From Cryomorphaceae bacterium (GTDB lineage Bacteria; Bacteroidota; Bacteroidia; Flavobacteriales_D; Parvicellaceae): a stretch of 64,000 nucleotides of DNA. Positions 11,693 to 47,415 of the stretch are shown here, one piece after another. The translations under genes were made by a program, and so were the position numbers. Position 1 is the stretch's first letter. Every line of letters starts with the position of its first letter. Under the pieces are notes generated by a model. The model worked only from the letters and a program-made list of their open reading frames with translations. It was not told the origin of the DNA and made no database searches. The DNA is taken from NCBI GenBank assembly GCA_905182525.1, contig CAJJBV010000002.1, positions 434,001 to 498,000 on the forward strand, given 5' to 3'.

Positions 11693-11702
11693 AATAATTT
11701 TT

Positions 11703-11933
11703 TTATTTTTTTGAGCAACATGATTTACCAGTAGAAATTTCTTTTTCAAATTTCACATTAGATTTTTGAGGCTTTTCACTCATTTTAGAACAACATGATT
11801 TGCTAGTAACAATAGTTGTCTTTTTATTTTCAGATGAGTTAGAATCTATTTTATTAAAAATATTAAGAGTAGAAGTTGTAGCTCCAATTCCAAAAGCAGC
11901 TATTAGAATAAATGAAAGTAAAATTTTTTTCAT
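11703..11933 (-). CDS. Small exported peptide with two KSCCSK motifs
   Basis: A 76-residue protein I do not recognise. Residues 1-20 form a hydrophobic export signal (ILLSFILIAAFGIGA). The rest is polar, Lys/Ser-rich and contains the motif KSCCSK twice, at about residues 45-50 and again at the C terminus (GKSCCSKK). Paired vicinal cysteines in a short exported peptide suggest metal binding or disulfide chemistry, but that is inference. It faces the hydroxyacyl-CoA dehydrogenase gene convergently, with ten bases between the stops, and is followed by psd on its own strand. Confidence 0.7.
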   Translation of the reverse strand: MKKILLSFILIAAFGIGATTSTLNIFNKIDSNSSENKKTTIVTSKSCCSKMSEKPQKSNVKFEKEISTGKSCCSKK

Positions 11934-11993
11934 AATTTATTAAAATCAAACGAATTTAATATTATTATTCAAATAGCTGGTCATGTAGCATAT

Positions 11994-25083: not shown

Positions 25084-26139
25084 ATGGAATATTTAAATTA
25101 TGAACTTTTTGGCAATTCTATCCATCATTGGGTTATTGCTTTAGGAGTATTAGTAGGGTCTTTTGTATTAGTTAAAATTATTTATTGGGTTTTCTCTTCT
25201 GTTTTTAAAAATTTAACCAATAAAACTAAAACCAATTTAGATGATATATTAGTAAAGAACTTGCAAAAGCCACTTACAAATTTAGTGCTCATTGGCGCTT
25301 ATTATTTTGCAGTGAGTTATTTAAGTTTTGAAAAAAACGTTGAGGGAGTTTTATTAAATATTGCCTATTTGTTATTTACAATTAGCATTACATCAATTAT
25401 TTCTAAAATAGTCGATGCACTTATCTCAGAGGTGATTTTGCCAATTTCGAAAAAAACCGAATCAAGTTTTGACGCTCACCTAATTCCAGTAATTCAAAAA
25501 GCAGTTAGAGCAATAATATGGTCTTTAGGAATTGTAATTGGACTTGACAATATTGGATTTGATATTACTGCCATGATTGCAGGACTTGGAATTGGTGGGC
25601 TTGCTCTTGCTTTGGCTGCACAAGATTCTGTTAAGAATATTTTTGCTGGAATCATGATATTTCTAGACAAGCCTTTTAAAATAAATGACAGAATAAAAAT
25701 AGATGGTCACGATGGAACTGTAGAAGATGTTGGGCTTAGAAGTACTAGAATAAGGACATTGGAAGGAAGAATTGTCACCATTCCAAATTGTACTTTTACC
25801 GATAATAGTGTGATAAATGTTACATCTCAACCTGCTCTTAAGGTAAAAATAAACCTAGGCTTAACCTATGATACTAATGAAGATTCTATGCAAAAAGCAA
25901 TAGATATACTAGTTGACATTGTTAAAAACCAAGATTCTATTACCAATGATTACGCAGCAGGGTTTAATGGTTTTGGAGATTTTTCTTTAAATATTTTATT
26001 TATGTATTATGTAAAACCAGATTCTCATTGGCTAAATACACAAACCCTAGTAAATAAAGAAATTCTAAAAAGATTTAATAAAGAAGGGTTAGAGTTTGCA
26101 TTTCCAACCCAAACTATATTCAAAAAAGAAATTAGTTAA
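25084..26139 (+). CDS. Small-conductance mechanosensitive ion channel, MscS family
   Basis: A 351-residue channel that opens under membrane tension to release solutes during osmotic downshock. Three to four transmembrane helices occupy about residues 14-175. The pore-lining helix is the typical Gly/Ala-rich GLGIGGLALALAAQDSVKN (about 169-187). The beta domain (DKPFKINDRIKIDGHDGTVE) and the C-terminal alpha/beta domain follow. Its last 8 bases overlap the end of the convergent FKBP gene. Confidence 0.93.
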   Translation: MEYLNYELFGNSIHHWVIALGVLVGSFVLVKIIYWVFSSVFKNLTNKTKTNLDDILVKNLQKPLTNLVLIGAYYFAVSYLSFEKNVEGVLLNIAYLLFTISITSIISKIVDALISEVILPISKKTESSFDAHLIPVIQKAVRAIIWSLGIVIGLDNIGFDITAMIAGLGIGGLALALAAQDSVKNIFAGIMIFLDKPFKINDRIKIDGHDGTVEDVGLRSTRIRTLEGRIVTIPNCTFTDNSVINVTSQPALKVKINLGLTYDTNEDSMQKAIDILVDIVKNQDSITNDYAAGFNGFGDFSLNILFMYYVKPDSHWLNTQTLVNKEILKRFNKEGLEFAFPTQTIFKKEIS

Positions 26140-26806
26140 TACTAATTAATTCTACTTCAAAAACTAATGTTGAATATGGTCCAATTTGTGGTCCTGCACC
26201 TCTTTCTCCGTAAGCTAAATCGTAAGGTACATAAAGCTTCCACTTAGAACCAACAGACATTAATTGTAATGCTTCTGTCCAACCTTTGATAACTCCATTT
26301 ACAGGAAAACTAGCTGGTTCACCTCTATCTACAGAGCTGTCAAAAACAGTTCCATCCATTAATGTCCCATGGTAATGAGTTGTTACTTTGTCTTCTAGTT
26401 TAGGCATATTAATACCATCACCCTCGGCAAGTACTTCATACTGCAATCCGCTTTCTAAAACAGTAATGCCTTCTTTTGATGCATTTGCTTGTAAAAACTT
26501 TTTTCCTTCTTCAATCATTGATTCACTTTCTTGGCCTTGCTTTTTGGTAAAGTATCCTTGAATAATTGCTGTAGCCTGTTCGCCACTAATTTTAGGATCT
26601 TTCTCATTATCTAAAACCTCTTTCATTCCAGCTTTAAAGTTATCTAAACTGATATCTTCAAATTGATTTTTAATATTTTCTCCAATATTAACTCCTAGAC
26701 TATAACTAACAGAATCAAGTTCATTTTCTAAATTAGCTTCTTTAGGTGCTTCGGTTTTACAAGCAACAACTGCAAGTAAGGATGATATTATTATTACGTT
26801 TTTCAT
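26132..26806 (-). CDS. FKBP-type peptidyl-prolyl isomerase, lipoprotein
   Basis: A 224-residue Mip/FkpA-like isomerase that catalyses proline isomerisation outside the cytoplasm. A lipoprotein signal ends in the lipobox LAVVAC (Cys16). The helical dimerisation domain (DSVSYSLGVNIGENIK onward) and the C-terminal FKBP domain (about 125-224) follow. That domain has YHGTLMDGTVFDSS and VIKGWTEALQLM of the active site. It lies one base downstream of a paralogue of identical length and is clearly a tandem duplicate. The two differ mainly at the N terminus. Confidence 0.94.
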   Translation of the reverse strand: MKNVIIISSLLAVVACKTEAPKEANLENELDSVSYSLGVNIGENIKNQFEDISLDNFKAGMKEVLDNEKDPKISGEQATAIIQGYFTKKQGQESESMIEEGKKFLQANASKEGITVLESGLQYEVLAEGDGINMPKLEDKVTTHYHGTLMDGTVFDSSVDRGEPASFPVNGVIKGWTEALQLMSVGSKWKLYVPYDLAYGERGAGPQIGPYSTLVFEVELISIN

Positions 26807-26807
26807 T

Positions 26808-27482
26808 TTAATTTATACTTATAAGTTCAACTTCAAAAATTAATGTTGTGTATGGACCTATTTGTGGGCCGGTTCCTCTTTCTCCATAGGCTAAATCATA
26901 AGGCACAAAAAGTTTCCATTTTGAACCTACAGGCATTAGTTGTAATGCTTCTGTCCAACCTTTAATAACTCCATTTACAGGAAAGCTTGCTGGTTCACCT
27001 CTATCAACAGAACTGTCAAAAACTGTTCCATCAATTAATGTTCCATGATAATGCGTAGTTACTTTATCTTCTAAAGTAGGTTTTGGACCTTCTCCAGTTT
27101 TCATGATTTCATACTGCAATCCACTCTCAAGGGTAATCACGTTTTCTCTTTTAGAGTTATCTGCAAGGAATTTTTTCCCGACTTCCATAACAGACTCACT
27201 AGCTTTAGCTTGTATTTTTGTAAAATAATCTTGAATTAGTTTTTGAGCATCTGCATTAGAAATTTTAGGTTCTTTGCTTTCGTCTAAAACATCTTTTATG
27301 GCAGCTTCAAAATTATCCAAGTCTATATCTGGAAATTGTTTTTTAATATTTTCTCCAATATTTACTCCAAGACTGTAGCTTACAGAGTCAATTTCATTAT
27401 TCATTTTTTGTCCTGACATATTTAAATTTATAGATAGGTTTACAATAGTTATTATTAAGGTGAGAAATGTGTATTTTTTCAT
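26808..27482 (-). CDS. FKBP-type peptidyl-prolyl isomerase, non-lipidated paralogue
   Basis: A 224-residue sister of the downstream lipoprotein isomerase, with the same helical domain and an almost identical FKBP domain (YHGTLIDGTVFDSSVDRG, VIKGWTEALQLMPVGSKW). The N terminus is a plain hydrophobic signal (YTFLTLIITIVNLSI) with no lipobox cysteine, so it is probably soluble in the periplasm while its sister is membrane-attached. It is separated from the sister by one base and probably co-transcribed. Confidence 0.93.
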   Translation of the reverse strand: MKKYTFLTLIITIVNLSINLNMSGQKMNNEIDSVSYSLGVNIGENIKKQFPDIDLDNFEAAIKDVLDESKEPKISNADAQKLIQDYFTKIQAKASESVMEVGKKFLADNSKRENVITLESGLQYEIMKTGEGPKPTLEDKVTTHYHGTLIDGTVFDSSVDRGEPASFPVNGVIKGWTEALQLMPVGSKWKLFVPYDLAYGERGTGPQIGPYTTLIFEVELISIN

Positions 27483-27522
27483 AGTCTAAATTATAATGTA
27501 GTTTTTAAGATAAAATCAATTA

Positions 27523-28062
27523 TCAACCGCTTTTCTTTTGTGGTGTTTGAATTTTTTTGGGAATTTGTTTTCTAATTGCTGTATTACTTTTTTTTGTAAT
27601 TTGTTTTTTAGGCTTTTTCTCGGTTTTTTCTACTTTATCTCCTGCTTTAGTTTCCTTAGAATCTTCTTTTTTAGATTCTTTAAGTTTTAACTTTTTAGTT
27701 TTGTGTAGTATGTTATACCATTGGAAAAGCTTTTTAATATCAGAATTATAGACCTGTTCTTTGTCAAAGTTGGGAACATATTCTTCTAGTTTTGCTCTAA
27801 CCTTTTTTATATCTTCTGTGTGATCTATAGTAGGTTTGCCATCGTTAGATTCATATATTTTTCTAAATATATCAGAGAGAAGAACCTCCTCATCATAAGT
27901 GTAAATGCTTATATCTGAGAGTGCACTGATTTTATTAGTATTAAAAATTGGAAATCTTTTTTTATCAATAATTGATTCTACAATCACATTATTTTTGGAT
28001 TTTCCAACAGTGCTGAATAACCCAGATTTTCCAGAAATTGATATGATATCTTTTAAATCCAT
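27523..28062 (-). CDS. DUF5606 domain protein with a lysine-rich tail
   Basis: A 179-residue protein. Residues 1-135 match the DUF5606 type common in Bacteroidota: MDLKDIISISGKSGLF at the start, a beta-rich segment, SIYTYDEEVLLSDIFRKIYE, and DIKKLFQWYNILHK. Residues 137-179 are a low-complexity Lys/Glu/Thr tail (KKPKKQITKKSN), perhaps a nucleic-acid or membrane contact. The function of the family is not established as far as I know. It lies upstream of the FKBP pair on the same strand. Confidence 0.82.
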   Translation of the reverse strand: MDLKDIISISGKSGLFSTVGKSKNNVIVESIIDKKRFPIFNTNKISALSDISIYTYDEEVLLSDIFRKIYESNDGKPTIDHTEDIKKVRAKLEEYVPNFDKEQVYNSDIKKLFQWYNILHKTKKLKLKESKKEDSKETKAGDKVEKTEKKPKKQITKKSNTAIRKQIPKKIQTPQKKSG

Positions 28063-28089: not shown

Positions 28090-28384
28090 TTATTCTTTTA
28101 TAAGCTTAATTGGTTTTAAATTTGATTGATTTTTTATTACTAACCAGTATATACCACGGCTTGTAGAAATGTCATCAATTGTAATTTCATTACTTATTGT
28201 GGTTATGGTTTTAACTATTCTACCGCTAAGATCAAATAGCTCTAAAGTATGTGGACCATCAATGTTTTGAATTTTAACAGTTGTACTTTCATTGAAAGGG
28301 TTTGGATAAACAGTTAATTCAGGTTGTAAATCTTGACCCCCAATTACATTGGTAACAACAGATTGATCTACAAAAAAGCTATAA
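28090..28384 (-). CDS. Adhesin segment: T9SS C-terminal sorting domain
   Basis: Without a start codon of its own, this stretch continues the adhesin in the frame after the break near 28435. It reads YSFFVDQSVVTNVIGG, then VYPNPFNESTTVKIQNIDG, DLSGRIVKTITT and the end LKPIKLIKE. This is a type A sorting domain that directs export through the T9SS and is normally removed on secretion. The ending is closely similar to that of the second giant at 38078. Confidence 0.65.
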
Positions 28385-28882
28385 TCAATTAAAAATCCAA
28401 AGTTTCCTTGTCCTTGTCCAATTACTAATATTATTGAAATCTTTAATTAGCCAACTTCCATCTAATCCTCCCCAAAAAGAACCACCTAAACCATCACCAT
28501 AAACATCACCTAATTCAAAAGTATAGCACTCATTAGGGGCTAAGTTCATATTTTGAATAATAGTAGTATTTGCCTGTGGACCTCCTCCACCAGCATTACA
28601 ATTATAATTTTGACCACTATATATAACAGTATCCCTACTGTCTTTAACATTCCAGAATGTTTCTAAACAATAATCGTCTAGTAATAATTCTAGAGTAATA
28701 GGAGAAGTAATTCCACCATTTATGGTTAATACTAAAGAAATAATACTGTCACAACCTAGTGAAGAGGTTAAGGTATCTGTATATACGCCAGAAGTTGTGT
28801 ATTGAACACCATTAAATGTGTATGTACTACAAGAAGAAACGCTGTCTACAAAAAAGTAACTTTCAGAAATTATAAGTGACAA
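28385..28882 (-). CDS. Adhesin segment: last two-cysteine repeats and pre-sorting domain
   Basis: An open segment of 165 codons near the 3' end of the adhesin locus. It carries one and a half two-cysteine repeats (SCSTYTFNGVQYTTSG, GCDSIISLVLTING). Then comes the domain starting TSPITLELLLDDYCLETFWN, which also stands before the sorting signal of the second giant. Its own last residues (NWTRTRKLWIFN) are a frameshift artefact: the sister gene shows that GQGQGDFGF should follow. The true ending continues in another frame to 28090. Confidence 0.6.
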   Translation of the reverse strand: MSLIISESYFFVDSVSSCSTYTFNGVQYTTSGVYTDTLTSSLGCDSIISLVLTINGGITSPITLELLLDDYCLETFWNVKDSRDTVIYSGQNYNCNAGGGGPQANTTIIQNMNLAPNECYTFELGDVYGDGLGGSFWGGLDGSWLIKDFNNISNWTRTRKLWIFN

Positions 28883-30200
28883 ATTAATAATACTGTCACA
28901 ACCACTAGCTGAGCTGAGAGTATCTGTATAGACTCCACTTTGAGAATATATATTCCCATTCCAAGAATAACTGTTACAAGCTATGGCAGAATCAATAGTT
29001 GAAAAGGAATTGTTTATTGTAAGGTTTAATGTAACAATACTATCACATCCAGATAAAGTAGACTAAGGTATCTATAAATATTCCACTTGATAAGTAAGTA
29101 TTACCGTTCCAAGAGTAAGTAGTCACATGCAGAAATATTTAGAGTATTGTTACTAGAATTATTAATTATTAAGTTAAGAGTTTCAACACTGTCACAGCCG
29201 CTAGCGGTTTGTAAACTATCGTAATATGTTCCAGATTGACTATAAGTAGTTCCATTCCATAAGTAGTTACTACAAGAAGTAATACTTTCTACTGATGAGT
29301 AAGAATTATTAATAACAAGATTTAAAGTAACAATACTATCACAACCAGCACTAGTAGATAAAGTGTCATCTACTATAAGTTTCCAGTATGCAGCATGTAT
29401 AAGTATTGTCCATTCCAAGAGTAAGTAATCAGCAAGCATGTAACATTTACTTGGCTCACAACAGCAGAATCTATAGTAAGATTTAGATTGTAGCAGTACT
29501 ATCACAACCTACCGAGTTGGTAGTAATGAAATTATAAATTCCCGTTGCTGACGTAAGTTGATCCATTCCAGTTAACAGCATCGCAAGAAGATAAACTTGA
29601 TATAGAAGAACTGGAATTATTTATAGTTAAGTTTAAAGTATCTACACAAGTACCGAAGAGTTGGTATAAGTTCCGCTAGTAGTATAACTATTTCCATTCC
29701 AAGCAAAAGAATCGCAAGCTACTTCATTACTTACATGTAGGGTTGGTGGTAATGGTTAAATCTAAAGAATCATATTGTGGACAACCTGCAGCATTCACGT
29801 TAGTGTCTACATATATTCCAGAAGCTAATAGCGTTTGTCCATTCCAAGTATAAGACTATACAGGAAGATTCGGTTACTAAACTAGTAGAAGAACTAGTTT
29901 ACAGTTAAATCTAATTTGTACTAAACTATCACAACCATTTGAGCTTTGTAAGTGTAAGTGGCGGTATTGTTACTAGCAAAATAAGTAATACCATTTAACC
30001 AAGTTAAGCTATCGCATTGGGTGAGTGAGTCAGTTGTATTTGAGCTTTGGTTAAAAGTTAAATTTAGAGTTATTATACTATCACAACCAGCTGTATTTAT
30101 TAGTGAATCGTAGTAAGTTCCAGAACTTGTAAGACTAGTTCCTCCCCACTGAATAGCATTACAAACTGTAGAATCGATTGTTATTAAATCTTTTTGATTT
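28720..30200 (-). repeat. Array of about ten two-cysteine repeats in adhesin 1
   Basis: Units of roughly 46-49 codons, each with a cysteine followed by W-N-G-x-T-Y, a G-T-Y-x-D-S stretch and G-C-D-S before a TLNLTIN strand. Copies are diverged from one another, unlike the near-identical block in the second giant. Several small indels shift the frame within the array. Confidence 0.7.
29101..29505 (-). CDS. Adhesin segment: two-cysteine repeats
   Basis: An open fragment of 134 codons inside the repeat array of the first giant. It reads two to three copies of the CDS-type repeat (GCDSIVTLNLVINNSYS, YLWNGTTYSQSGTYYDSL). The surrounding stretches 28883-29100 and 29506-29920 carry further copies of the same repeat in other frames, each broken by small indels. 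It should be seen as part of the 28090-37374 gene, not as an independent gene. Confidence 0.5.
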   Translation of the reverse strand: MIVLLQSKSYYRFCCCEPSKCYMLADYLLLEWTILIHAAYWKLIVDDTLSTSAGCDSIVTLNLVINNSYSSVESITSCSNYLWNGTTYSQSGTYYDSLQTASGCDSVETLNLIINNSSNNTLNISACDYLLLER

Positions 30201-31777
30201 ACTATTATTACTACGGTGTCTGACATTATACATCCAATGGAATTAATTGCTGTAGCAATATAAGTAGTAGTTGAAGCGGGCACAAAAGAAACTCCGTTTA
30301 CAACATTATTGTCCCAAGCTAAACTATCTGTTGTGCTAGCAGATAAGGTAATACTACTTCCCTCACAAATACTTTGGTCTAGACCAGCATTAACAGTAGG
30401 ACTAGCATTAACCGTAATAAAACCAGTTTTGGTTTCGCTGTCGCTTCCACCACTTGCAGTAGCTGTAAGAGAAACATCGTATGTTCCAGAAGCAGTATAT
30501 GTGTGAGTTGGGTTTTGTAAATTAGAAGTAGTACCATCGCCAAAGTCCCAGTTCCAAGAAATGGCATTTCCAGCGCTACTGTCTGTAAAGCTTATAGAAG
30601 AACCTACGCAAGTGGAGTTGGTATCTACTACAAAATCGGCTATAATAGCACTAATAAATATATTGGTTACTATAATAGAATCGCAGCCATTAATGGTTGT
30701 AAAATTCTCTACTACTTGAGCCGGAGAAGTATAAATAGTTCCGTTATAGGTAACACTAGGGCTGCCGCTTATGGCAGTAGTATCAAAATAAGTTGGGTAA
30801 ATATCTATATTTTGAATACTGGTGTCTTTACAAGTGCTTCCATTGGTAGTGGCAACAAGCCTAACATTATAATTCCCAGGATTTAAGTAATTATAACTAG
30901 GGTTTTGTAAAGTTGTATTTCCGCCATTTCCAAAATCCCATTCATAGGTAGCAGTACCTGAAGAAATGGTGGTATTGTTGGTAAAAATAGTAGTGTCTTG
31001 AGCACAATTATTAGAAATGCTAAAGGAAGCATTAGGAGTTATTTCTACTACTACATTTTGAGTAATGTTTCCATAACAACCCACATTGCTATACGCTCTT
31101 AATTCAACACTATAAGTACCGGAAGTATCGTATAGGTGAAGAGGATTTTGTAGGGTAGAGGTATCGCCATCGGCAAATAGCCACTCGTAAGAATCAATAG
31201 TACCAGTAGATACCGATCCACTTCCTGTAAAAGAAGTTTGTTCGTTGGCACATGCAGAAAGATAGGTAAAGCTGGCCGTTGGTACATTGTCTCTATAAAT
31301 GGTTTTTGTAAGGGTATCGTTATTTATGTTTTCATCGGAAGTATTTACCAGCCACGCTTTAAAAACATAATTGCCAATAGCGCTTAAATCTTCTGTAGTG
31401 GTGAAGGTATAATCGATGTCGCTAAAGGTAGTTCCAGTAATAGTTTCGGTAGTAATGGCCCCGCCATTTACTTGGTAGGCTATTTGTAAATCTATAAATG
31501 CAGCATCGCCATATTGTACTACTCTAAACTCTACTGCTTCACTGTTGGTATGGAAACAGTTTAGGGTAGGTTGCAATAAATCTAGTATGCCAAAGTCTAC
31601 TGTAAATTCTTGTGCGCCTATGTCGGGAGCAGATGCATTTCTTACTTCGTTGTCTATATCTACATTACAGCCAGGAACATAAATACCAGCACCGTTTAGT
31701 TGTCGCTGGCTTACCATTAAGTTCGTATTAGATACGAAGAAGGGGTTTACCTTAAGGGAGTTGGCATCGCTGCCCAT
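29921..31777 (-). CDS. Adhesin segment: end of beta-helix unit 3, three PKD domains, first repeats
   Basis: An open segment of 618 codons of the first giant. It starts with the end of the third beta-helix unit (SLKVNPFFVSNTNL, DIGAQEF). A CARDB-like domain (VVQYGDAAFIDLQIAYQVNG) follows. Then come three PKD domains, recognised by YEWLFADGDTS, YEWDFGNGGNTT and WNWDFGDGTTSNLQNPTHTY, and an Ig-like stretch (NAGLDQSICEGSSITL). Two of the two-cysteine repeats end the segment. The break before it, near 31778-31790, is one extra base relative to sister units. Confidence 0.65.
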   Translation of the reverse strand: MGSDANSLKVNPFFVSNTNLMVSQRQLNGAGIYVPGCNVDIDNEVRNASAPDIGAQEFTVDFGILDLLQPTLNCFHTNSEAVEFRVVQYGDAAFIDLQIAYQVNGGAITTETITGTTFSDIDYTFTTTEDLSAIGNYVFKAWLVNTSDENINNDTLTKTIYRDNVPTASFTYLSACANEQTSFTGSGSVSTGTIDSYEWLFADGDTSTLQNPLHLYDTSGTYSVELRAYSNVGCYGNITQNVVVEITPNASFSISNNCAQDTTIFTNNTTISSGTATYEWDFGNGGNTTLQNPSYNYLNPGNYNVRLVATTNGSTCKDTSIQNIDIYPTYFDTTAISGSPSVTYNGTIYTSPAQVVENFTTINGCDSIIVTNIFISAIIADFVVDTNSTCVGSSISFTDSSAGNAISWNWDFGDGTTSNLQNPTHTYTASGTYDVSLTATASGGSDSETKTGFITVNASPTVNAGLDQSICEGSSITLSASTTDSLAWDNNVVNGVSFVPASTTTYIATAINSIGCIMSDTVVIIVNQKDLITIDSTVCNAIQWGGTSLTSSGTYYDSLINTAGCDSIITLNLTFNQSSNTTDSLTQCDSLTWLNGITYFASNNTATYTYKAQMVVIV

Positions 31778-38077: not shown

Positions 38078-39265
38078 TTACTCAATTATTAATTTCACAG
38101 GTTTTAAACTAGACTGGTTTTTCACAACTAACCAATATACGCCGCCACTTGAAGAAATATTTTCAAGGGTAAATTCATTGCTATTGGTAGTTAAAGATTT
38201 AACTATTCTTCCGCTTATATCGAAAACCTCTATGATATGCGGGCCATCAATATTTTGAATTTTTACGGTTGTACTTTCATTAAAAGGATTCGGATAAACT
38301 GCAATACCAGCATTCGAAAATTGATTTTCTATAACACTAGTAACAACAGATTGCCCTACTAAAAAACTGTACTCAACAATAAATCCAAAATCTCCTTGAC
38401 CTTGTCCAATTACAATATTATTCAAGTCTTTAATAATCCAATTGCCATCAGTACCATTCCAAAAAGAAGCTCCTAATCCATCTCCATAGTAATCGTTTAA
38501 TTCAAAAGTGTAACAATCGTTAGGATCTAAGAACATAATTTCGGTAATAGTGGTATTTGCTTGAGCTCCCCCGCCACTTGGATTACAGTTGTAATTTTGA
38601 CCGCTGTACCACACAGAATCTTGACTGTCTTTTACACTCCAAAAAGTTTCTAAACAATAGTCATCGAGTAGTAGCTCTAAAGTAATTGGTGAAGTTACAT
38701 CGTCGTTGATGGTTAAATATAATGTTTGAATACTGTCACATGTTACACTAGATAATACAGTATCTATATAAACTCCAGAAGAGTCGTACTGATTCCCATT
38801 CCAAATATAGCTTTGGCAAGCCGCAACAGTATCGACAGTAAAAATATTTCCAGAAATTATTAGCGATAATATATTTACACTATCGCAGCCACTTAAACTA
38901 GATAAACTGTCGTAGTATATTCCACTTTGAGTGTAGGTATTTCCATTCCAAGAATAGCTGTTACAAGAATTTACCGTATCAATATTAGAGTAAGTATTAT
39001 TTATAGTAAGATTTAAGGTAACAATACTGTCACATCCCAAGCTGCTAGTAGAAGAATCTACATATGTTCCACTTTGAGTATATGTAACTCCATTCCAAGA
39101 GTAGGAATTACAAGCAATAATTGGTATATTATTATTTGTTGATTGATTAATAGTTAAGCTAAGTATTGTAACGCTATCGCAACCAAAAGTATTAAGTAAA
39201 CTATCATAATAAGTTCCGCTTTGGTTGTAAGTAACTCCATTCCAAGAATAAGAGTCCGCAAGCAC
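38078..39265 (-). CDS. Chimera segment: last repeats, pre-sorting domain and T9SS sorting domain
   Basis: The C-terminal 395 codons of the second giant. Four to five two-cysteine repeats (SYSWNGVTYNQSGTYYDSL) are followed by the domain TSPITLELLLDDYCLETFWS to IIKDLNNIVIGQGQGDFGF, then the sorting domain IAVYPNPFNESTTVKIQ to LKPVKLIIE. The frame is intact through the stop, so this end gives the model for repairing the same region of adhesin 1. Confidence 0.72.
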   Translation of the reverse strand: MLADSYSWNGVTYNQSGTYYDSLLNTFGCDSVTILSLTINQSTNNNIPIIACNSYSWNGVTYTQSGTYVDSSTSSLGCDSIVTLNLTINNTYSNIDTVNSCNSYSWNGNTYTQSGIYYDSLSSLSGCDSVNILSLIISGNIFTVDTVAACQSYIWNGNQYDSSGVYIDTVLSSVTCDSIQTLYLTINDDVTSPITLELLLDDYCLETFWSVKDSQDSVWYSGQNYNCNPSGGGAQANTTITEIMFLDPNDCYTFELNDYYGDGLGASFWNGTDGNWIIKDLNNIVIGQGQGDFGFIVEYSFLVGQSVVTSVIENQFSNAGIAVYPNPFNESTTVKIQNIDGPHIIEVFDISGRIVKSLTTNSNEFTLENISSSGGVYWLVVKNQSSLKPVKLIIE

Positions 39266-39833
39266 TTATGCTTACATTATTTGTACTTGATGAATTTATA
39301 GTTAGGATAAGTGTTGAAACACTATCGCAACCACCAGCAGTTAAAGAACTGTCTAAGTAAGTTCCACTTTGGCTGTAAGTATTGCCATTCCAAGAATAAG
39401 AGTTACAAGCGGAAATATTCTGAGATGTAATAATAACCGAATCAATAGTTAAGTTAAGGGTAGAAATGCTATCGCAACCAGAAGCAGTTAAAGAACTGTC
39501 ATAGTAAGTTCCACTTTGGTTGTAAGTAACTCCATTCCAAGAATAAGAGTTACAAGCGGAAATATTCTGAGATGTAATAATAACCGAATCAATAGTTAAG
39601 TTAAGGGTAGAAATACTATCGCAACCAGCAGCAGTTAAAGAACTGTCGTAGTAAGTTCCACTTTGGTTGTAAGTATTGCCATTCCAAGAATAAGAGTTAC
39701 AAGCGGAAATATTCTGAGATGTAATAATAACCGAATCAATAGTTAAGTTAAGGGTAGAAATACTATCGCAACCAGCAGCAGTTAAAGAACTGTCTAGTAA
39801 GTTCCACTTTGGTTGTAAGTATTGCCATTCCAA
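39204..39833 (-). CDS. Chimera segment: near-identical 49-residue repeats
   Basis: An open segment of 209 codons reading about four copies of ACNSYSWNGNTYNQSGTYYD and AAGCDSISTLNLTIDSVII. The frame is lost upstream by a missing G at about 39794: the sequence there reads TGTCTAGTAA, while sister copies read TGTCGTAGTAA. It is part of the second giant. Confidence 0.6.
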   Translation of the reverse strand: MEWQYLQPKWNLLDSSLTAAGCDSISTLNLTIDSVIITSQNISACNSYSWNGNTYNQSGTYYDSSLTAAGCDSISTLNLTIDSVIITSQNISACNSYSWNGVTYNQSGTYYDSSLTASGCDSISTLNLTIDSVIITSQNISACNSYSWNGNTYSQSGTYLDSSLTAGGCDSVSTLILTINSSSTNNVSISACGLLFLEWSYLQPKRNLL

Positions 39834-39995
39834 GAATAAGAGTTACATGCGGAAATATTCTGAGATGTAATAATAACCGAATCAATAGTTAAGTTAAGGG
39901 TAGAAATACTATCGCAACCAGCAGCAGTTAAAGAACTGTCGTAGTAAGTTCCACTTTGGTTGTAAGTATTTCCATTCCAAGAATAAGAGTTGCAG
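39350..39995 (-). repeat. Near-identical 147-base tandem repeats
   Basis: The word TGAGATGTAATAATAACCGA recurs at 39421, 39568, 39715 and 39861, giving spacings of 147, 147 and 146 bases. Each unit encodes 49 residues. The 146-base unit lacks one base and causes the frameshift at about 39794. Confidence 0.88.
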
Positions 39996-40474
39996 GCAGT
40001 TATATTTTCCGAACTACTTATTGTAGAATTAATAGTTAAGTTTAAAGTAATAATACTATCACAACCAGCAGCAGTTTGTAATGTGTAAGTAGCAGAGTTA
40101 TTGCTGGAAGTGTAAGTAATTCCATCAATCCAGTTGATGCTATCACAAGTAGAAATCACATCAGTTTCGCCTTTTGTTTGGTTAATAACAAGAATTAGAG
40201 TAGCTGTACTATCACAACCATTTGAGTTGGTAGTTAAGAAGTTATAACTTCCGGAGTTTGAGTAGTTAATGCCATTCCAAAGTAAAGAATCACATGATGT
40301 AACATTTGAAATTGAAGAATTAGAATTATTTATTGTTAAAAATAAGCTATCTACACAACTACTACCTGTAGTGTAATAAGTTCCACTTGTTGTATAAGTT
40401 GTGCCATTCCAAATTAAAGAATCGCAACTAATTTCTGTAGTTAAATTAGGAGTATTATTAATTATTAAATTCAA
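39794..40474 (-). CDS. Chimera segment: mixed two-cysteine repeats
   Basis: An open segment of 226 codons with WNG-type repeats (SLIWNGTTYTTSGTYY) and one WIDG-type repeat (SINWIDGITYTSSNNSATY), ending in the near-identical copies. The stretch 40475-40942 upstream holds further repeats in other frames (for example TWIDGIKYLSSNN near 40850). It is part of the second giant. Confidence 0.58.
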   Translation of the reverse strand: MNLIINNTPNLTTEISCDSLIWNGTTYTTSGTYYTTGSSCVDSLFLTINNSNSSISNVTSCDSLLWNGINYSNSGSYNFLTTNSNGCDSTATLILVINQTKGETDVISTCDSINWIDGITYTSSNNSATYTLQTAAGCDSIITLNLTINSTISSSENITACNSYSWNGNTYNQSGTYYDSSLTAAGCDSISTLNLTIDSVIITSQNISACNSYSWNGNTYNQSGTY

Positions 40475-40942
40475 AGAATCTATTAATGTGACAACCCACT
40501 GCGTTTGTTAAAGTATCTACATAAATTCCAGTAGCAGTAAGAGTTTGTCCATTCCAAATATAACTACTACAAGATATTGTTGCTAAATAAGTTAGATGAA
40601 GAAGAATTTATTGTTAAATCTAGATTAACTAAGCTATCGCAGTTTAAAGAATTTTGTAAAGTATAAGTAGCAGTGTTGTTGCTAGAAGAATAAGTAATAC
40701 CATCTATCCAAGTAATGCTATCGCAAGAAGTAAGAACATCTGTTCCAGTAGAGCTTTGGTTAACTGTTAAATTAAGCGTTACTAAACTATCGCAACCAGC
40801 TGAATTTGTCTAATTGTAAGTAGCGCTATTATTACTTGATAAATATTTGATTCCATCAATCCAAGTAAGACTATCGCAAGCAGAAATAACATCTGTTCCA
40901 ATTGAACTTTGGCTTACTGTTAAGTTAAGGGCAACTACACTA

Positions 40943-42223
40943 TCACAACCCGCAGAACTTTGCAATGTGTATGTAGCAGCTATTATTATTTGAAGTGTAG
41001 GTGATTCCATCTATCCAAGTAAGACTATCGCATGAACTTTGAGTGTCTATTGAAGAATTCGAAGTTGAGTCTTGTTGGTAAACTCTTATAAAATCAAGTA
41101 CCATTTCACTTTGAGTAAATGAAGGGTCAATAGAACTTTCAAGGGCTATATTTAACAATAGATATTGGTCTTCAGTAAACGGCCAATTATTTGGATCTTT
41201 TGGGTTGGGAGCATAAGAATAATATTCTACTCCATCTAAACTAAATGAAATTTTGTTTGGACTCCATTCCATAGCATATAAATGATAGGTATTGGATACA
41301 TCATTAGACATTATTCCTCCAACATTTACTGTACTTCCAAAAGAAGAAGGTGTATGTAAAGCACTTTTAATATAATTTTGGTTGTTTCCCCAATGTTCCA
41401 TTATATCAATTTCTCCGCAGGCAGGCCAATTGGTAGTTCCAAAACCTTGCGTTTGCCAGTAAGCACCAGTTTCATTTATATTTTTACCAAGAGTCCATAT
41501 AGCTGGCCAAGTACCAATACCAAAAGGTAATTTTGCTCTTGCTTCAACTCTACCATAGGTAAATGCATATTTAGAATTAAGTCTAGCAGAAGTGTAATTT
41601 TTAGTAATTCCTTGAACAGAATCGGTAAATGTTTCGCTTTTAGCAACTATATGTAAGTTTCCGTTTTGCACATATGAATTATCACTACGATCCGTGTAAT
41701 GTTGCACCTCTCCATTGTACCAACCTGTTCCATTTGGTATGAAAGTTTGGTGATACCACTTTGAATTGTCAATAGCTCCATTACCACTAAACTCATCTGA
41801 CCAAACAAGACTCCAGCTTGAAATAGTAAGATTTAGGGTAATAATACTATCGCATCCATTAGCGTTTATAAGTGTATCTGTAGCATAATTGTTATTGGAA
41901 TAATATGTATTTCCATCTATCCAAACTAAGGAATCACAAGCAGTAATTACATCTACACCAAAAGTAGCTTGGTTAATGGTTAAATTAAGAGTAACCACAC
42001 TATCACAACCAGCTGAATTAGCAAAGTTGTAAGTAGCAGTATTGTTACTAGAGTAATAAGTGTTTCCATCTATCCAAGTAATGCTATCGCAAGAAGAAAT
42101 AACATCAATCGATGAGCTACTTTGGTTAATCGTTAGATTAAGTGTAATTACACTATCACAGCCACTTAGAATTTGTGAGCGTATAAGTAGCCGAGTTATT
42201 ACTTGAGTTATAAGTAATTCCAT
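40943..42223 (-). CDS. Chimera segment: GH16 glycoside hydrolase flanked by repeats
   Basis: A 426-codon open segment. After three WIDG-type repeats a GH16 domain of about 250 residues begins at SWSLVWSDEFSGNGAIDN (about 41818) and ends at DFIRVYQQDS (about 41065). The catalytic motif ExDxxE is complete in GEIDIMEHWG (about 41390-41420). GRVEARAKLPFGIGTWPAIW and YHLYAMEWSPNKISFSLDG are typical of laminarinases and related beta-glucanases. Another repeat (SLTWIDGITYTSNNNS) follows directly. The exact polysaccharide is not determinable. Confidence 0.82.
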   Translation of the reverse strand: MELLITQVITRLLIRSQILSGCDSVITLNLTINQSSSSIDVISSCDSITWIDGNTYYSSNNTATYNFANSAGCDSVVTLNLTINQATFGVDVITACDSLVWIDGNTYYSNNNYATDTLINANGCDSIITLNLTISSWSLVWSDEFSGNGAIDNSKWYHQTFIPNGTGWYNGEVQHYTDRSDNSYVQNGNLHIVAKSETFTDSVQGITKNYTSARLNSKYAFTYGRVEARAKLPFGIGTWPAIWTLGKNINETGAYWQTQGFGTTNWPACGEIDIMEHWGNNQNYIKSALHTPSSFGSTVNVGGIMSNDVSNTYHLYAMEWSPNKISFSLDGVEYYSYAPNPKDPNNWPFTEDQYLLLNIALESSIDPSFTQSEMVLDFIRVYQQDSTSNSSIDTQSSCDSLTWIDGITYTSNNNSCYIHIAKFCGL

Positions 42224-42683
42224 CGATCCAAGTAATGCTATCGCAAGAAGAAATAAATCTGTTCCAGTATGAACACTTTGATTAATGGTTAAATTTAGGT
42301 TAACTACACTGTCGCAGCCATTAGCTGTTTGAGTGGCGTATGTTGCAGTGTTATTACTTGAGTTATAAGTAATTCCATCGATCCAAGTAATGCTGTCACA
42401 AGAAGAAATAACATCTGTTCCAGTTTGACTTTGATTTATTGTTAAATTAAGGGTAATAAGACTATCGCAGCCATTAGCTGATTGAATAGTATATGTAGAA
42501 GAATTATTGCTAGAAGTATATGTAATTCCGTCTATCCAAGTAATGCTATCGCAAGAAGAAATAACATCTGTTCCAGTTAAAGTTTGATTAATCGTTAAAT
42601 TTAGGGTAACTACACTATCGCAACCAGCTGAATTAGTAAGGGTGTAAGTAGCAGAATTATTGGTAGCTGTGTAAGTAAGCCCA

Positions 42684-43154
42684 TCAATCCAAGTATAAGT
42701 ACCACATGCAGTAACGAAACTCTGTTCCAGTAGTATTTGCCAATAAATTCACTGTAACATTATCCGTTGCAAAACAACCATTTCCGTCTGTTCCAGTAAC
42801 TGTATAAGTATTTGTAGATGATGGGTTAAAAGCGACTCCGTTAGTAACACTGTTATCCCAAGTATAGTTTACATTACTACTTCCAACAGTAATGGTTCCA
42901 ACCATTCCCCCATGAAATTCACATATATAATAATAGGTTCCAGCAGAAGTTGGTGACCAACTTATTATCCCCGAAGAAGTCCCATTATTGGTAACAGCAA
43001 CTGAATTGGCAGTACCAGTTGTAGCAGTAGTTTTTATTAAAAATGGATGACCAGGTGAATTCACATTAAAAGTAAGGGTATCTCCAAGAGAAATATTTAT
43101 TGCAGGGTCGTTTCCAGAAAATGCACCAGAAAGAATATAATTTGAAGCATTCAC
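42684..43154 (-). CDS. Chimera segment: cupredoxin-like domain
   Basis: An open segment of 156 codons. Residues 20-95 form a plastocyanin/amicyanin-like domain: SLGDTLTFNVNSPGHPFLI offers the first histidine ligand, and YYICEFHGGMVGTITV offers Cys, His and Met in the spacing C-x2-H-x2-M of amicyanin. An Ig-like stretch (YTVTGTDGNGCFATDNVTV) follows. The stretch 42224-42683 downstream holds more WIDG-type repeats in other frames. Electron transfer in a surface protein is an inference only. Confidence 0.68.
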   Translation of the reverse strand: MNASNYILSGAFSGNDPAINISLGDTLTFNVNSPGHPFLIKTTATTGTANSVAVTNNGTSSGIISWSPTSAGTYYYICEFHGGMVGTITVGSSNVNYTWDNSVTNGVAFNPSSTNTYTVTGTDGNGCFATDNVTVNLLANTTGTEFRYCMWYLYLD

Positions 43155-43242
43155 TGCTGTTACGCCAACTTATAAGTTTTGCCCACTAGTTGCATTTAAT
43201 GTTACACTATCTCCACTACAAATAGTTTGGTCTATTCCAGCA

Positions 43243-43857
43243 TTAATATTTGGATTTGGAGTTTATTGTAATAAAACCAGTTTTAGTCTCAGTAATAGTA
43301 TTTGTCCAGAGCTTGCAGTTAAAGAAACATCGTAAGTTCCAGCTGCTGCATAAGTATGAGTAGGGTTTTGCAATATAGATGTATGTACCATCGCCAAAGT
43401 CCCATAAATAGGCATTTGCTCCAGTTGATAAATTAGTAAATGAAACTGAGATTCCTGGGCAAATAGTAGAATCACTTGCAGAGAAATCGGAAGTTAAATT
43501 TAAAACTAACTCGTTAATAATTATAGTGTAGTCTTCTACTTGCCCACGTTGAGGAGCTTCACATGCGTTTGCAACATTACCAATATCAGAATTTAATCTT
43601 AATCTAAGTTTATTTCCGCTGATTATTGTGCTGCCATTAACACTAGGAATTGTTATATTTATGGTTGAAGTACTTATATAATTGCCACTAAAATTATCAG
43701 TAGTATTTAAGTCAAAAATTTGTTCGTTGGCATCTATAAAATCACCGTCATTATTAAAATCTATATATCCTTTTATATTATTTGCATTGTAAAGAGTTGA
43801 AACCTTAAAACTATAGGTGCTATCCTCAAAAACATTAATTACTTTTTGGCAATTCAA
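43243..43857 (-). CDS. Chimera segment: GEVED and PKD domains
   Basis: An open segment of 204 codons that matches the region after the protease in the stand-alone M43 paralogue: CQKVINVFEDSTYSFKVSTL, GYIDFNNDGDFIDANEQIF and QRGQVEDYTIIINE of the GEVED domain. A PKD-like domain begins with DFSASDSTICPGISVSFTNL. Its later part continues in the neighbouring frame (NPTHTYAAAGTYDVSLTA, about 43300-43380), showing another small indel. Confidence 0.65.
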   Translation of the reverse strand: MNCQKVINVFEDSTYSFKVSTLYNANNIKGYIDFNNDGDFIDANEQIFDLNTTDNFSGNYISTSTINITIPSVNGSTIISGNKLRLRLNSDIGNVANACEAPQRGQVEDYTIIINELVLNLTSDFSASDSTICPGISVSFTNLSTGANAYLWDFGDGTYIYIAKPYSYLCSSWNLRCFFNCKLWTNTITETKTGFITINSKSKY

Positions 43858-44110
43858 AGTATTGTCAACATATCCACCATCAGTTTCTGACCAAGAAGAA
43901 GTATTCGTAAATATGCCATCTATAGTAAAGTTTTTAATTCCTGTATAAAATCCACTAAGTCCTACAGAATCAGTTTGAGGAGAACAACTCGCATTAGCTA
44001 TGTAGTAGAATAATTTATTGGAGCTTCGTCTCCTTTTGAATAAATTAAACTAATTCCAGTAGTTTCTAACATTGCTCTAGATCTTGTTTTTTGATCGTTG
44101 GTAAGTCTAT

Positions 44111-45091
44111 CTACACAAGATGCATAAGACATATAATTTTTGGCAGTATTGTCTCCAAATTGGCTCCAGTACAATCGTTTAATTGTCCAGATTTACAATC
44201 GCTGGTATATCTTTTATGAACTTCTGTATCTGCACATCCGTCACTATCTACTCCAACCGTAAGATCTGCTGCACAAGAATCACCTATACCATCTTGATCT
44301 GCATCTCCATCGCCCTTAAAAGTGTGGTGTAAGTGAAGGTAATGACCAAATTCATGAACAACTGTAGAGTTGTCCCTAGGTAAGTTTAAATTAAATGAAG
44401 GTTGGTTGTTGTTTGGGTCGAACCCAAAAACACTAGCCATCATTACAGATCCTTCATAAGCTGAACCTGAGAAAAAATTGGCATAACCTTGAATCCCGCT
44501 CCCCCCATTGTTATCTTCAATTTCACTAACTATCCAAATATTAAAATACTCTGTTTCAGGCCATCTACTTAAATTTTTAAGTGTGTTTTCATCTGCTTCT
44601 CCACCATCTTCATAATAATCTACTCCCCCTATTGAATAGTTGGGTACAAAACTTGCATCAATTCTATTAATTCCAGAATGTGCATTACAATTAGAGTCTT
44701 GCTGAGCCAAAGAAAATTGTATTTCAAAATCTATTGGACTGTTGGCAGTATTTCCACGATATACGTCGTTCAAATTTGTAATTGCACTTTGTATTTGAGA
44801 ATCAGAAATATTGGTTCCAGTTCCCACAGCTTCACCCAAGTGAAGTACATGAACAACTACAGGAATATTATAGACAGAACCCAAGGTTCTTGATTGAGGA
44901 AGGCCTAGTTGCTGAGCAATTTTAAACTCAGATTCTATTTCTAATTTCAAATAATTAGAATCTTGTAATTGAATATTTCTTTTGTAATCAAACCCACATT
45001 CTTTAAGTAAAATATTTTGACCAAATGAAGTTAAAGACATTATAAAAGTCAAAGAAAGACTTATAATAAAAGTAGTATTGTAATTTTTCAT
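44111..45091 (-). CDS. Chimera segment: signal peptide and M43 metalloprotease domain
   Basis: The N-terminal 326 codons of the second giant. A signal peptide (about 1-25) is followed by the prepart YNIPVVVHVLHLGEA and the zinc site HEFGHYLHLHHTF (about 44332-44365), with the HExxHxxxxxH spacing of the metzincin clan. The aspartate-rich DGDADQDGIGDSC segment follows. The frame is lost near 44160. In the shifted frame the Met-turn reads NTAKNYMSYASC, as in the paralogue. Confidence 0.8.
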   Translation of the reverse strand: MKNYNTTFIISLSLTFIMSLTSFGQNILLKECGFDYKRNIQLQDSNYLKLEIESEFKIAQQLGLPQSRTLGSVYNIPVVVHVLHLGEAVGTGTNISDSQIQSAITNLNDVYRGNTANSPIDFEIQFSLAQQDSNCNAHSGINRIDASFVPNYSIGGVDYYEDGGEADENTLKNLSRWPETEYFNIWIVSEIEDNNGGSGIQGYANFFSGSAYEGSVMMASVFGFDPNNNQPSFNLNLPRDNSTVVHEFGHYLHLHHTFKGDGDADQDGIGDSCAADLTVGVDSDGCADTEVHKRYTSDCKSGQLNDCTGANLETILPKIICLMHLV

Positions 45092-45219: not shown

Positions 45220-47415
45220 TTATTTTTTTATAACTCTAATAGTTGAGGTCTTTTCCTGAACTTTCACAGACAAAAAATAAATTCCATTTTTAAATGGTTT
45301 TAAACTTATTTCTCTTTCATTAGTAGAAAGCAACTTTTTTCCGAATAAGTCGAAAACACTAGTATTTATTATTCCACTAAAATTAGCTGCACTTATTGTT
45401 AATAAATTTTTGGTTGGGTTTGGGTAAATAGAAATATTATTATCCCAATTTTTATTACCATTGCTACCGACAAATATCACATCAAAAAATACAGTATCTC
45501 CAGTACAGTTATCCGAATCTGTCACCAAGGCCCAAAAGTTACTATTAAAAGCAGGAACTATACTAGTTGTAGTTTCACCTGTACTCCAAAGGACAGTGTA
45601 TGAACCAGAGCCACCAGTTGAAGAAACATCAATATTATTTCCGTTTTGTATAATGTTGGAAACAATGTCAGAATTAATATTTAATGATAAAATTAGAATA
45701 CTGTCTGCTCCAGAATTTGCTTGACCTACGAGTGTATCGTAATAGGTCCCAGAACTTGTTAAAGTTGTTCCATTAAAATTATAGCTTTCACCATTGCAAA
45801 TATTAGCTGATATTCTATTGATTTCATTTGAATTAATATTAATAATTAAAGCATAATCTTCAACTTGACCATACAATGGTGTGTGACATGGACCAATTAC
45901 GTTGCCAATATCAGCATTAAGTCTTAATCTTAATTTAACACCACTTTTAACAGTAGTTCCGTTTACTGTAGGTACTGTGAAATTTATATATGCGGTAGAA
46001 GTGTAAGGGCTAACGTTGTTACTTACAGTATTTAAGTTTAATATTTCTTCATTGGCATCTAAAAAATCCCCATCACTATTAAAATCTACGTATCCTTTTA
46101 TGTTATTTCCATTATAAAGAGTTGTAATTTCAATATTATAGGTGCTGTCTTCAAAAACATCAATTATTTTTTGACAGTTTCCAGTATGATCTACATATCC
46201 TCCATCATCGTCTGCCCATGAAGAGCTTAAGGCAAAAACACTGGGAATTACAAGACTTTTTATCCCAGTATAATGTCCGGCGAGTCCATCATTTGAAGTT
46301 TGAGGTGTGCAATTTGGATTTGAAACAGATGAATTAATCGATGATGGGTACTGATCACCACTAGAATAAATTAAACTTATTCCAATACTTTCAAGCATGG
46401 CTCTTGATCTTGATTTTTGATTTGCAGTTAAAATAGTTTTGCAACTAGCATAAGACATATAGTTTTTAGCAGTATTATCTCCATATGTTTGGTTAGAACA
46501 ATCATTTAATTGACCAGATAAACATTGGCTAGTATGTCTTTTATGAGGCTCTGTATCTGAACAACCATCACTATCTACTCCAATAGTAACGTCTCCCGGG
46601 CAATTGTCTCCAATAGCATCTTGATCTGCATCACCGTCTCCCTGAAAAGTGTGATAAAGATGAAGGTAGTGGCCAAATTCATGAACTACAGTAGAATTAT
46701 TTCTAGCTCCTTTTAAAGAAAAATTTGGCTCATTATTGTTTGGGTCATATCCAAAAACATTGTACATCATTATTGAACCTTCATTATTATTGCCATAAAA
46801 GTAATTTGCATAACCTTGTATTCCACTTCCCCCATCATTATCTTCTATTTCGTTAACTATCCAAATATTAAAATACTCTGTTTCTGGCCATTTGCTTAAA
46901 GCTTTTAAATCATCCTCATCTGCCTGACCACCATCTCCAAAGTAATCTACTCCACCAGTAGAATAATTTGGAACTGCACTAGCATCGATTCTTAAAATTC
47001 CACTTGTTGAATCACAATTTGGATCTTGTTTTGCTAAAGAAAAATCAATTTTAAAATCTACTGGACTATTAGCCGATTGGCCCCTATAAACTTCGTTAAG
47101 ACGAGTTATTGCACTTTGTATTTGAGCATCAGAAATATTATAAGAAGTTCCTATTGGTTGCCCTGTATGAAGTACATGAACAACTACTGGAATTGTGTAA
47201 ATACTATGAGATGATCTTGATTGGTTTTGAGATAAATATTGTGCTATTTTCATCTCTGATTCAATTTCTAACTTTAAGTAATTAGGGTCTTTCAATAGTA
47301 GAACTCTTTTATAATCAAACCCACATTCTTCCAATACCTGACTCTGAGCAATTAAATTTTGAAATGTAAACAGTAAACAAAAAGTTGAGATAATAATTGA
47401 TATGAAATTTTTCAT
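45220..47415 (-). CDS. Secreted M43 (pappalysin-type) metalloprotease with T9SS sorting domain
   Basis: An intact 731-residue secreted zinc protease. Domains: signal peptide (1-23), M43 catalytic domain with HEFGHYLHLYH (about 244-254) and Met-turn KNYMSYASC (about 317-325), a GEVED domain ending QVEDYALII (about 510), one two-cysteine-like repeat (NICNGESYNFNGTTLTSSG), and a T9SS sorting domain (SIYPNPTKNLLTISAANF to STIRVIKK). The glycine usual at position 8 of HExxHxxGxxH is histidine here and in its paralogue. It lies just upstream of the giant chimera, whose first 700 residues are homologous, so the two arose by tandem duplication. Confidence 0.93.
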   Translation of the reverse strand: MKNFISIIISTFCLLFTFQNLIAQSQVLEECGFDYKRVLLLKDPNYLKLEIESEMKIAQYLSQNQSRSSHSIYTIPVVVHVLHTGQPIGTSYNISDAQIQSAITRLNEVYRGQSANSPVDFKIDFSLAKQDPNCDSTSGILRIDASAVPNYSTGGVDYFGDGGQADEDDLKALSKWPETEYFNIWIVNEIEDNDGGSGIQGYANYFYGNNNEGSIMMYNVFGYDPNNNEPNFSLKGARNNSTVVHEFGHYLHLYHTFQGDGDADQDAIGDNCPGDVTIGVDSDGCSDTEPHKRHTSQCLSGQLNDCSNQTYGDNTAKNYMSYASCKTILTANQKSRSRAMLESIGISLIYSSGDQYPSSINSSVSNPNCTPQTSNDGLAGHYTGIKSLVIPSVFALSSSWADDDGGYVDHTGNCQKIIDVFEDSTYNIEITTLYNGNNIKGYVDFNSDGDFLDANEEILNLNTVSNNVSPYTSTAYINFTVPTVNGTTVKSGVKLRLRLNADIGNVIGPCHTPLYGQVEDYALIININSNEINRISANICNGESYNFNGTTLTSSGTYYDTLVGQANSGADSILILSLNINSDIVSNIIQNGNNIDVSSTGGSGSYTVLWSTGETTTSIVPAFNSNFWALVTDSDNCTGDTVFFDVIFVGSNGNKNWDNNISIYPNPTKNLLTISAANFSGIINTSVFDLFGKKLLSTNEREISLKPFKNGIYFLSVKVQEKTSTIRVIKK

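Follow-up and report, generated by a model that had tools for sequence, protein, structure and literature searches.

In a 64,000-nucleotide stretch of a Cryomorphaceae bacterium genome (GCA_905182525.1, contig CAJJBV010000002.1, positions 434,001 to 498,000; hereafter the window), we identified a minus-strand gene at 38078-45091 that encodes, in this order from the N-terminus, a probable signal peptide and a prosegment with a Cys-Gly motif, then an M43 (pappalysin) protease domain, GEVED and PKD domains, a PKD-like unit enclosing a cupredoxin, an array of 51-aa repeats, a glycoside hydrolase family 16 (GH16) domain, further repeats, a conserved C-terminal segment and a type A sorting domain of the type IX secretion system (T9SS). 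The locus probably encodes one very large T9SS exoenzyme, in which an ancestral pappalysin would have gained domains via repeat arrays and become a cell-surface protease/laminarinase. Each component is of a known type and none represents a new enzyme class; the novelty is the architecture, an order of known domains unseen in the relatives compared, for which step-by-step insertion of domains into a conserved surface protease is the best explanation, within the limits set by a single genome and a broken frame. The features, all on the minus strand, are listed below; relatives are cited by genome (G) and locus (L) labels, G000 being the window's own genome.

38078-45091, minus: whole gene, frame broken, T9SS multi-domain protein (Pfam and NCBIfam on pieces; intact syntenic orthologues in G003 and G006)
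45017-45091, minus: signal peptide MKNYNTTFIISLSLTFIMSLTSFGQ, recognised by eye
44978-45001, minus: prosegment Cys-Gly ECGFDYKR, candidate cysteine switch (motif search; the CG of the G006 orthologue aligned to the CG of ulilysin 8cd8_A)
44001-44879, minus: M43 (pappalysin) catalytic domain, approximate limits (Pfam, motifs, PDB relatives of the G006 orthologue)
43522-43776, minus: GEVED (PF20009, 2.6e-13, piece 43387-43995)
43265-43500, minus: PKD, approximate limits, with an internal frame switch near 43388 (WDFGDG at 43387-43404; PKD_4 at the equivalent place in G003 and G006)
42772-43244, minus: PKD-like unit (NAGIDQTICSG ... NYTWDN ... DGNGC) with the cupredoxin inserted mid-unit (reading of the window; G003 alignment)
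42885-43130, minus: cupredoxin (PF00127; A2 alignment columns; PDB plastocyanin, pseudoazurin, amicyanin)
41819-42717, minus: upstream CDSxxWIDG array, 51-aa units, 153-bp period (repeat and motif search)
41072-41818, minus: GH16 laminarinase domain, uninterrupted, 249 aa (Pfam, alignment, AlphaFold2, PDB match)
40600-41071, minus: downstream CDSxxWIDG repeats, units at 41032, 40878 and 40725 (repeat and motif search)
38700-40599, minus: YxWNG-type array, mostly of 147-bp period, with one WIDG unit at 40147 (repeat and motif search)
38300-38700, minus: conserved C-terminal segment LLLDDYCLETFW..., orthologous to the end of the G003 protein
38081-38299, minus: T9SS type A sorting domain (PF18962, TIGR04183)
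45220-47415, minus: intact tandem paralogue, 731 aa, M43-GEVED-T9SS (Pfam)

Pfam was run piecewise on the frame fragments of the gene, from 45091 to 38078 on the minus strand, and five families passed their cut-offs: Peptidase_M43, GEVED, Copper-bind, Glyco_hydro_16 and Por_Secre_tail. Consistently with the complete GH16 hydrolase bearing EIDIME that the original prediction had described, Glyco_hydro_16 (PF00722) matched piece 40980-42712 (9e-20, 71.3 bits against a cut-off of 22), with the catalytic GEIDIMEH at 41393-41416, and G135, E136, D138 and E141 were invariant in a 13-row alignment (A1). The domain has no signal peptide of its own, since the 601-codon open frame around it continues into 51-aa repeats both before and after. 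ZgLamA, the GH16 endo-1,3-beta-glucanase of Zobellia galactanivorans (PDB 4bow, 4bpz, 4bq1), was the best solved relative by sequence (5.7e-60) and accounted for the top four PDB structure matches of the AlphaFold2 model (predicted local distance difference test, pLDDT, 94.8), the best being 4bpz_B with a TM of 0.90 and 43% identity. Both enzymes have the same catalytic EIDxxE and share the stretch NETGxY...WPACGEIDI, at which GH16 row L041 shows a gap; PMC5595797 describes an additional loop of ZgLamA and links it to beta-1,3-linked substrate. On sequence and model, the earlier "beta-glucanase" is narrowed to a predicted ZgLamA-type laminarinase. Contrary to ZgLamA, which presumably comes without a protease, the window GH16 is an internal domain of a protease polypeptide.

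Close GH16 relatives (63-71%, 100 genomes) sit in frames of 368-715 codons, except for the G010 row, which has internal stops, and a wider search (E 1e-30) retrieved GH16 from 224 of the 399 genomes in the order (that of the window included), in frames of at most 734 codons among the matches listed. In the GH16 tree, named neighbours of the same-order rows suggest that this order is Flavobacteriales, and the nearest rows by path were G016 and G023, joined without a supported node; apparent GH16 frames of 1133 aa in these two genomes were discarded, each being two frames in sequence (364 and 768 aa). In the sister species G007, G001 and G006 (L028, L029, L030), the close GH16 forms a gene of its own, next to a metallo-beta-lactamase-like gene that we take to be PqqB-like. 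This neighbour also occurs in G000 (contig 5, in two frames) and G003 (contig 45), the GH16 matches of both genomes lying on other contigs.

The predicted amicyanin-like copper loop was recovered as CEFHGGM at 42903-42923, which supplies Cys, His and Met, the fourth ligand being the His in HPFLIKT at 43029-43049. Copper-bind (PF00127) passed narrowly on piece 42700-43169 (1.1e-4, 23.0 bits against a cut-off of 21.2), and in a 12-row alignment (A2) C83, H86 and M89 were invariant and H41 nearly so. The PDB matches were plastocyanin, pseudoazurin and amicyanin, with which the domain has the ligand set His...Cys-x2-His-xn-Met in common; the short C-x2-H-x2-M spacing is, we assume, that of amicyanin, and the NCBIfam amicyanin profile scored 16.3, far below its cut-off of 110.2. 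Unlike these three proteins, the window cupredoxin sits inside a PKD-like unit and forms part of a giant secreted protein. The window copy of this unit (42772-43244) holds one in-frame stop. When the intact G003 segment was compared with the uninterrupted PKD-like units of L007 and L008, the whole unit was regained on both flanks of the cupredoxin, 5/5 uninterrupted units scoring 101-141 against shuffle maxima of 45-54. The subfamily is scarce (10 of the 399 genomes, including that of the window; E 1e-15) and, among the frames compared, was joined to M43 in G003 only, plus the window by synteny. In the window protein the copper domain may act as an electron or copper carrier or buffer, or be purely structural. 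By eye, the large proteins of L007 and L008 (G029, G011) show a further insertion before the cupredoxin within the same PKD-like unit, a pattern suggesting that nested insertion is recurrent. Three copies of the same cupredoxin subfamily lie in repeat-rich, seemingly broken frames of L020 (G010:C8:180000-197980), at 11525-12337, 14685-15305 and 17169-17879.

At the protease end, Peptidase_M43 (PF05572) matched piece 44166-45091 (3.9e-7, 30.6 bits against a cut-off of 23), and the orthologues of G003 and G006 scored higher (54.2 and 50.7 bits). The zinc motif HEFGHYLHLHH of the original prediction was found at 44324-44356; it keeps the three His and the Glu of HExxHxxGxxH, with His at the usual Gly. 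The Met-turn NYMSY with its following Tyr (M-x-Y; 44124-44138) stands in another frame than the zinc motif, a switch falling near 44158. PDB relatives of the G006 orthologue were ulilysin, mirolysin and pappalysin-1, and candidate Asp and Cys residues for calcium sites and two disulfides were noticed in the window sequence. GEVED and PKD were likewise confirmed, the former by Pfam and the latter through WDFGDG and the PKD_4 matches of G003 and G006; Pfam left PKD uncalled on the window's own pieces, the frame being interrupted within it.

The gene ends, as anticipated, in a type IX sorting domain, recognised by Por_Secre_tail (PF18962, 3.4e-9, piece 38081-39265) and by the NCBIfam type A model TIGR04183 (3.9e-10, 39.6 bits against a cut-off of 23). 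The sorting domain was found by Pfam in the last piece only and the signal peptide, by eye, in the first only. The genome also carries the gene for the T9SS translocon SprA (SprA_N 4.2e-158, 2472-codon open frame; 14 control genomes silent). Signal peptide, sorting domain and SprA together indicate export across the outer membrane.

We then placed the gene in its genomic context. In the genus, holA was located in 9/10 relatives, and in all nine located slots an M43 gene starts beside it. The contig end falls inside this M43 gene in six of the nine (in G009 before the zinc motif), so that the gene was read through only in G003, G005 and G006. In these three the slot is bounded on the far side by a gene of DUF5606 type and by two of FKBP type, which the window also has at 26132-28062; the window slot holds, in addition, about 10 kb of further genes, most of them rich in repeats, and the tandem copy of M43. 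The orthologues of G003 (L019:5261-10195, 1645 aa) and G006 (L144:1081-4914, 1278 aa) are single intact frames ending in a sorting domain, and that of G005 (1237 aa) is one frame with the same order by reading and unresolved bases at its end. Since these frames are intact, the chain from protease to sorting domain is one protein in the relatives.

Compared at this slot, the genes form a series. In G005 and G006, M43-GEVED-PKD is followed by nine YxWNG repeats, without any WIDG repeat, and by the C-terminal segment, with a T9SS domain called by Pfam in G006; the array of both is composed of the YxWNG repeat type. G003, the only one of the three read-through orthologues with a cupredoxin, adds this domain and three WIDG repeats between PKD and the array, which has ten YxWNG repeats. 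The window gene has 9 WIDG and 11 YxWNG repeats, counted over three frames, plus GH16. G003 and the window thus have the same slot and the chain M43-GEVED-PKD-nested cupredoxin-repeats-C-terminal segment-T9SS domain in common (window 39250-38081 against G003 residues 1256-1645: 56% identity), and differ in that G003 is without GH16, has fewer WIDG repeats and has no tandem M43 paralogue in the slot. The simplest reading of the series is stepwise gain, cupredoxin and WIDG repeats first and GH16 later, rather than loss. The paralogue itself sits between the fusion gene and holA, gave no Pfam match to cupredoxin or GH16, and clusters with the M43 of the fusion gene in the M43 tree (support 94/93, slightly below the star threshold of the tool).

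As to the claim of a single T9SS polypeptide, the part from protease to C-terminal domain therefore stands on the single frames of G003 and G006 (the end of G005 being unresolved), while GH16 is absent from the G003 chain; likewise, the same domain order recurs in G003 through nested cupredoxin, repeats and T9SS domain, and the order with GH16 was seen in none of the relatives compared. We examined co-occurrence of M43 and GH16 from the GH16 side, in 120 distinct GH16 frames outside the window's own genome (92 from 80 named loci out of 592 confirmed stretches and 28 from unnamed relatives; 6/120 touch an end of the available stretch), and none of the 120 contained M43, GEVED or cupredoxin. Related genomes in which the parts are always separate genes had been named as evidence that would speak against the fusion: this is the situation of GH16 in the frames compared, and not of protease and cupredoxin, which are joined in G003. 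The 0/120 result and the lack of GH16 in the sister G003 suggest that the fusion is confined to one species, rather than that there is no fusion. The same repeat type follows GH16 in 2/120 frames, those of G022 and G028 (680 and 715 aa; L025, L026), where a close GH16 (70%) precedes CDSxxWIDG-type repeats; these proteins differ from the window protein in having no M43 or cupredoxin match, and their layout is a possible donor architecture.

The broken reading frame noted originally was confirmed. In a codon-usage frame model (terminal stops removed, 15 training genes), the fusion gene required 9 switches against none in 13 syntenic flank genes (12,750 bp; 5/13 among the training genes), the tandem paralogue, rpoB, or the G003 and G006 orthologues. 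Breaks are patchy along the assembly, with 10 switches in the repeat-rich gene at 28093-31777 and, in a sugar locus on contig 1, 6 in GH3/GH16 and 2 in SusC. Substitution patterns were explored in parallel, dS being at or near saturation in most pairs: pN/pS was 0.152/0.705 for M43 and 0.104/0.520 for cupredoxin (both against G003), 0.196/0.696 for GH16 (against G016) and 0.147/0.728 for holA as reference. At the codon level, these patterns argue that the protein was under purifying selection until very recently. Because the domains are constrained and similar breaks occur elsewhere in the assembly, residual sequence error is suggested, and we favour such error in weakly covered or repetitive patches over decay.

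Several observations weigh against a functional single-chain fusion. An uninterrupted frame was never seen for the window gene, and an earlier run of the model gave 2-3 in-frame stops beyond the terminal one, depending on the penalty. Elsewhere in the assembly rpoB, dnaE and sprA have intact frames, so that the breaks are unevenly spread and decay is possible. Only one genome is known to have the GH16 insertion, the GH16 tree leaves its source undecided (with G001, G006 and G007 in a supported clade of their own), the PF00127 score barely exceeds its cut-off, and the single-sequence model of the cupredoxin reached a pLDDT of only 41.6. One alternative is that the fusion DNA is real and the breaks genuine, the gene being a decaying pseudogene in a strain that is losing several secreted-protein and carbohydrate genes. 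The clustering of breaks in the fusion gene, in 28093-31777 and in the contig-1 sugar locus, with none in the 13 flank genes or rpoB, agrees with this, as does the metallo-beta-lactamase-like gene on contig 5, likewise read in two pieces. We nevertheless hold decay to be unlikely, if worth keeping in mind, given codon-level constraint on M43, cupredoxin and GH16 similar to that on holA, the retention of catalytic and ligand motifs, the uninterrupted GH16 domain and the intact paralogue lying between the fusion gene and holA.

A different concern is that the link between GH16 and the protease gene is an assembly artefact produced by the repeats, GH16 really belonging to a separate GH16-repeat protein like those of G022 and G028. 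CDSxxWIDG repeats are common to both protein types, the fusion was found in 0/120 other frames compared, and contigs stop inside the M43 gene in 6/9 genus relatives, so that assemblers do stumble there. The repeats flanking GH16 are only 65-81% alike over at least 89 nt (64-90% in one 69-nt family) and their longest exact match across GH16 is 31 bp, which makes an assembly collapse unlikely; the longest exact repeat within the gene (122 bp, at 39556 and 39849) belongs to the other array, of YxWNG type. Moreover, the contig measures 526 kb in a 6-contig assembly, and a chimera would require two junctions, both in repeat frame. We therefore give misassembly a low probability. Lower still, and in our judgement close to negligible, is the probability that the frames as they stand yield protease, cupredoxin and GH16 as independent polypeptides: the longest frame in the region as deposited is indeed 601 codons, but the GH16 frame is embedded in repeats without a signal peptide, the orthologues hold the chain from M43 to the C-terminal domain in one frame, and the sorting domain is confined to the last piece as the signal peptide (by eye) is to the first.

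The preferred reading, a single exoenzyme assembled by stepwise insertion and intact in the living cell, may be put as the following course of events. An M43 pappalysin gene would have been kept as backbone in one slot between holA and the DUF5606 gene (9/9 genus relatives with a located slot). At a step shared with G003, the gene would have acquired CDSxxWIDG repeats and a type-1 copper domain sitting within a PKD-like unit, and a ZgLamA-type laminarinase would then have been inserted between two CDSxxWIDG repeats, in the window species only as far as seen. The protein would cross the outer membrane via the T9SS and stay at the cell surface or be released; loss of the Cys-Gly prosegment would activate the zinc protease, which would cut protein in algal debris, while GH16 would endo-hydrolyse beta-1,3-glucan to oligosaccharides, the repeats serving as spacers. 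Oligosaccharides might be taken up through a SusC/D-GH16-GH3 locus, probably for laminarin, that the genome carries on contig 1 (L021, G000:C1:250000-266000; SusD, TonB plug, GH16 and GH3, with the frame breaks given above). Of all this, the sequence itself shows the domains with their order and synteny, the succession of architectures, the catalytic and ligand residues, the sorting tag and the SprA gene; an intact frame in the living cell, localisation, substrates, cooperation of the parts, the role of copper and gain as the direction of change are inference. The idea of a surface machine for a mixed algal protein/polysaccharide matrix gains in precision, with the beta-glucanase narrowed to a laminarinase; laminarin is a storage glucan (PMC11345257), so that protein-rich algal debris is a better guess as target than a wall matrix. 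More speculatively, and we regard this as doubtful, the 49-51-aa repeat arrays could be insertion-tolerant sockets for catalytic and redox modules, through which a fixed-slot surface protease was turned stepwise into a single-chain protease/laminarinase/copper machine, its copper domain aiding catalysis, for example as electron or copper donor to an oxidative partner.

Among described proteins the closest is cytophagalysin CPL1 of Cytophaga sp. L43-1, a bacterial pappalysin-family metallopeptidase which, according to PMC11674741, has a signal peptide, a prosegment with a putative cysteine switch, a ulilysin-like M43 domain, an Ig-like tail and a T9SS-CTD-like end, and shows the same M-x-Y spacing as the window protein (Met284/Tyr286). 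The domains listed in its abstract include neither a copper domain nor a glycoside hydrolase, and eight Ig-like domains take the place of the WIDG and YxWNG repeats. Mirolysin (Tannerella forsythia) and ulilysin (Methanosarcina acetivorans) resemble the window protein in the Cys-Gly prosegment motif, extended zinc motif and Met-turn, as these are described in PMC6949598, and differ in their shorter chains; the position of the usual Gly is His in the window protein and Asp (Asp231) in mirolysin, whose zinc motif also does without Gly (PMC6949598). By analogy with both, the Cys-Gly prosegment suggests zymogen latency (PMC6949598, PMC11674741). Within the one paper collection and the terms searched, titles and abstract openings contained nothing describing an M43-GH16 fusion, or a cupredoxin or plastocyanin with T9SS; the single paper there with both "cupredoxin" and "type IX secretion" (PMC12016528) applies them to unrelated genes.

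If confirmed, the gene would unite protease and laminarinase in one T9SS polypeptide, a layout that the 120 GH16 frames compared do not show. The ordered series at one slot in one genus (protease; plus cupredoxin; plus laminarinase) makes the idea of repeats as docking sites directly testable, and like fusions may be under-counted, since contig ends truncate such genes in 6/9 relatives and the frame is broken here.

Elsewhere in the slot, the minus-strand segment 33288-36767 is a 1159-codon frame with two near-identical long copies of one segment, including a 734-bp exact direct repeat at 33499 and 35236; no Pfam family exceeded its cut-off in this frame, and similar repeated proteins occur in G010 (L020). 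The repeat-rich gene at 28093-31777, also on the minus strand, has three PKD_4 stretches and a C-terminal end homologous to that of the G003 M43 protein.

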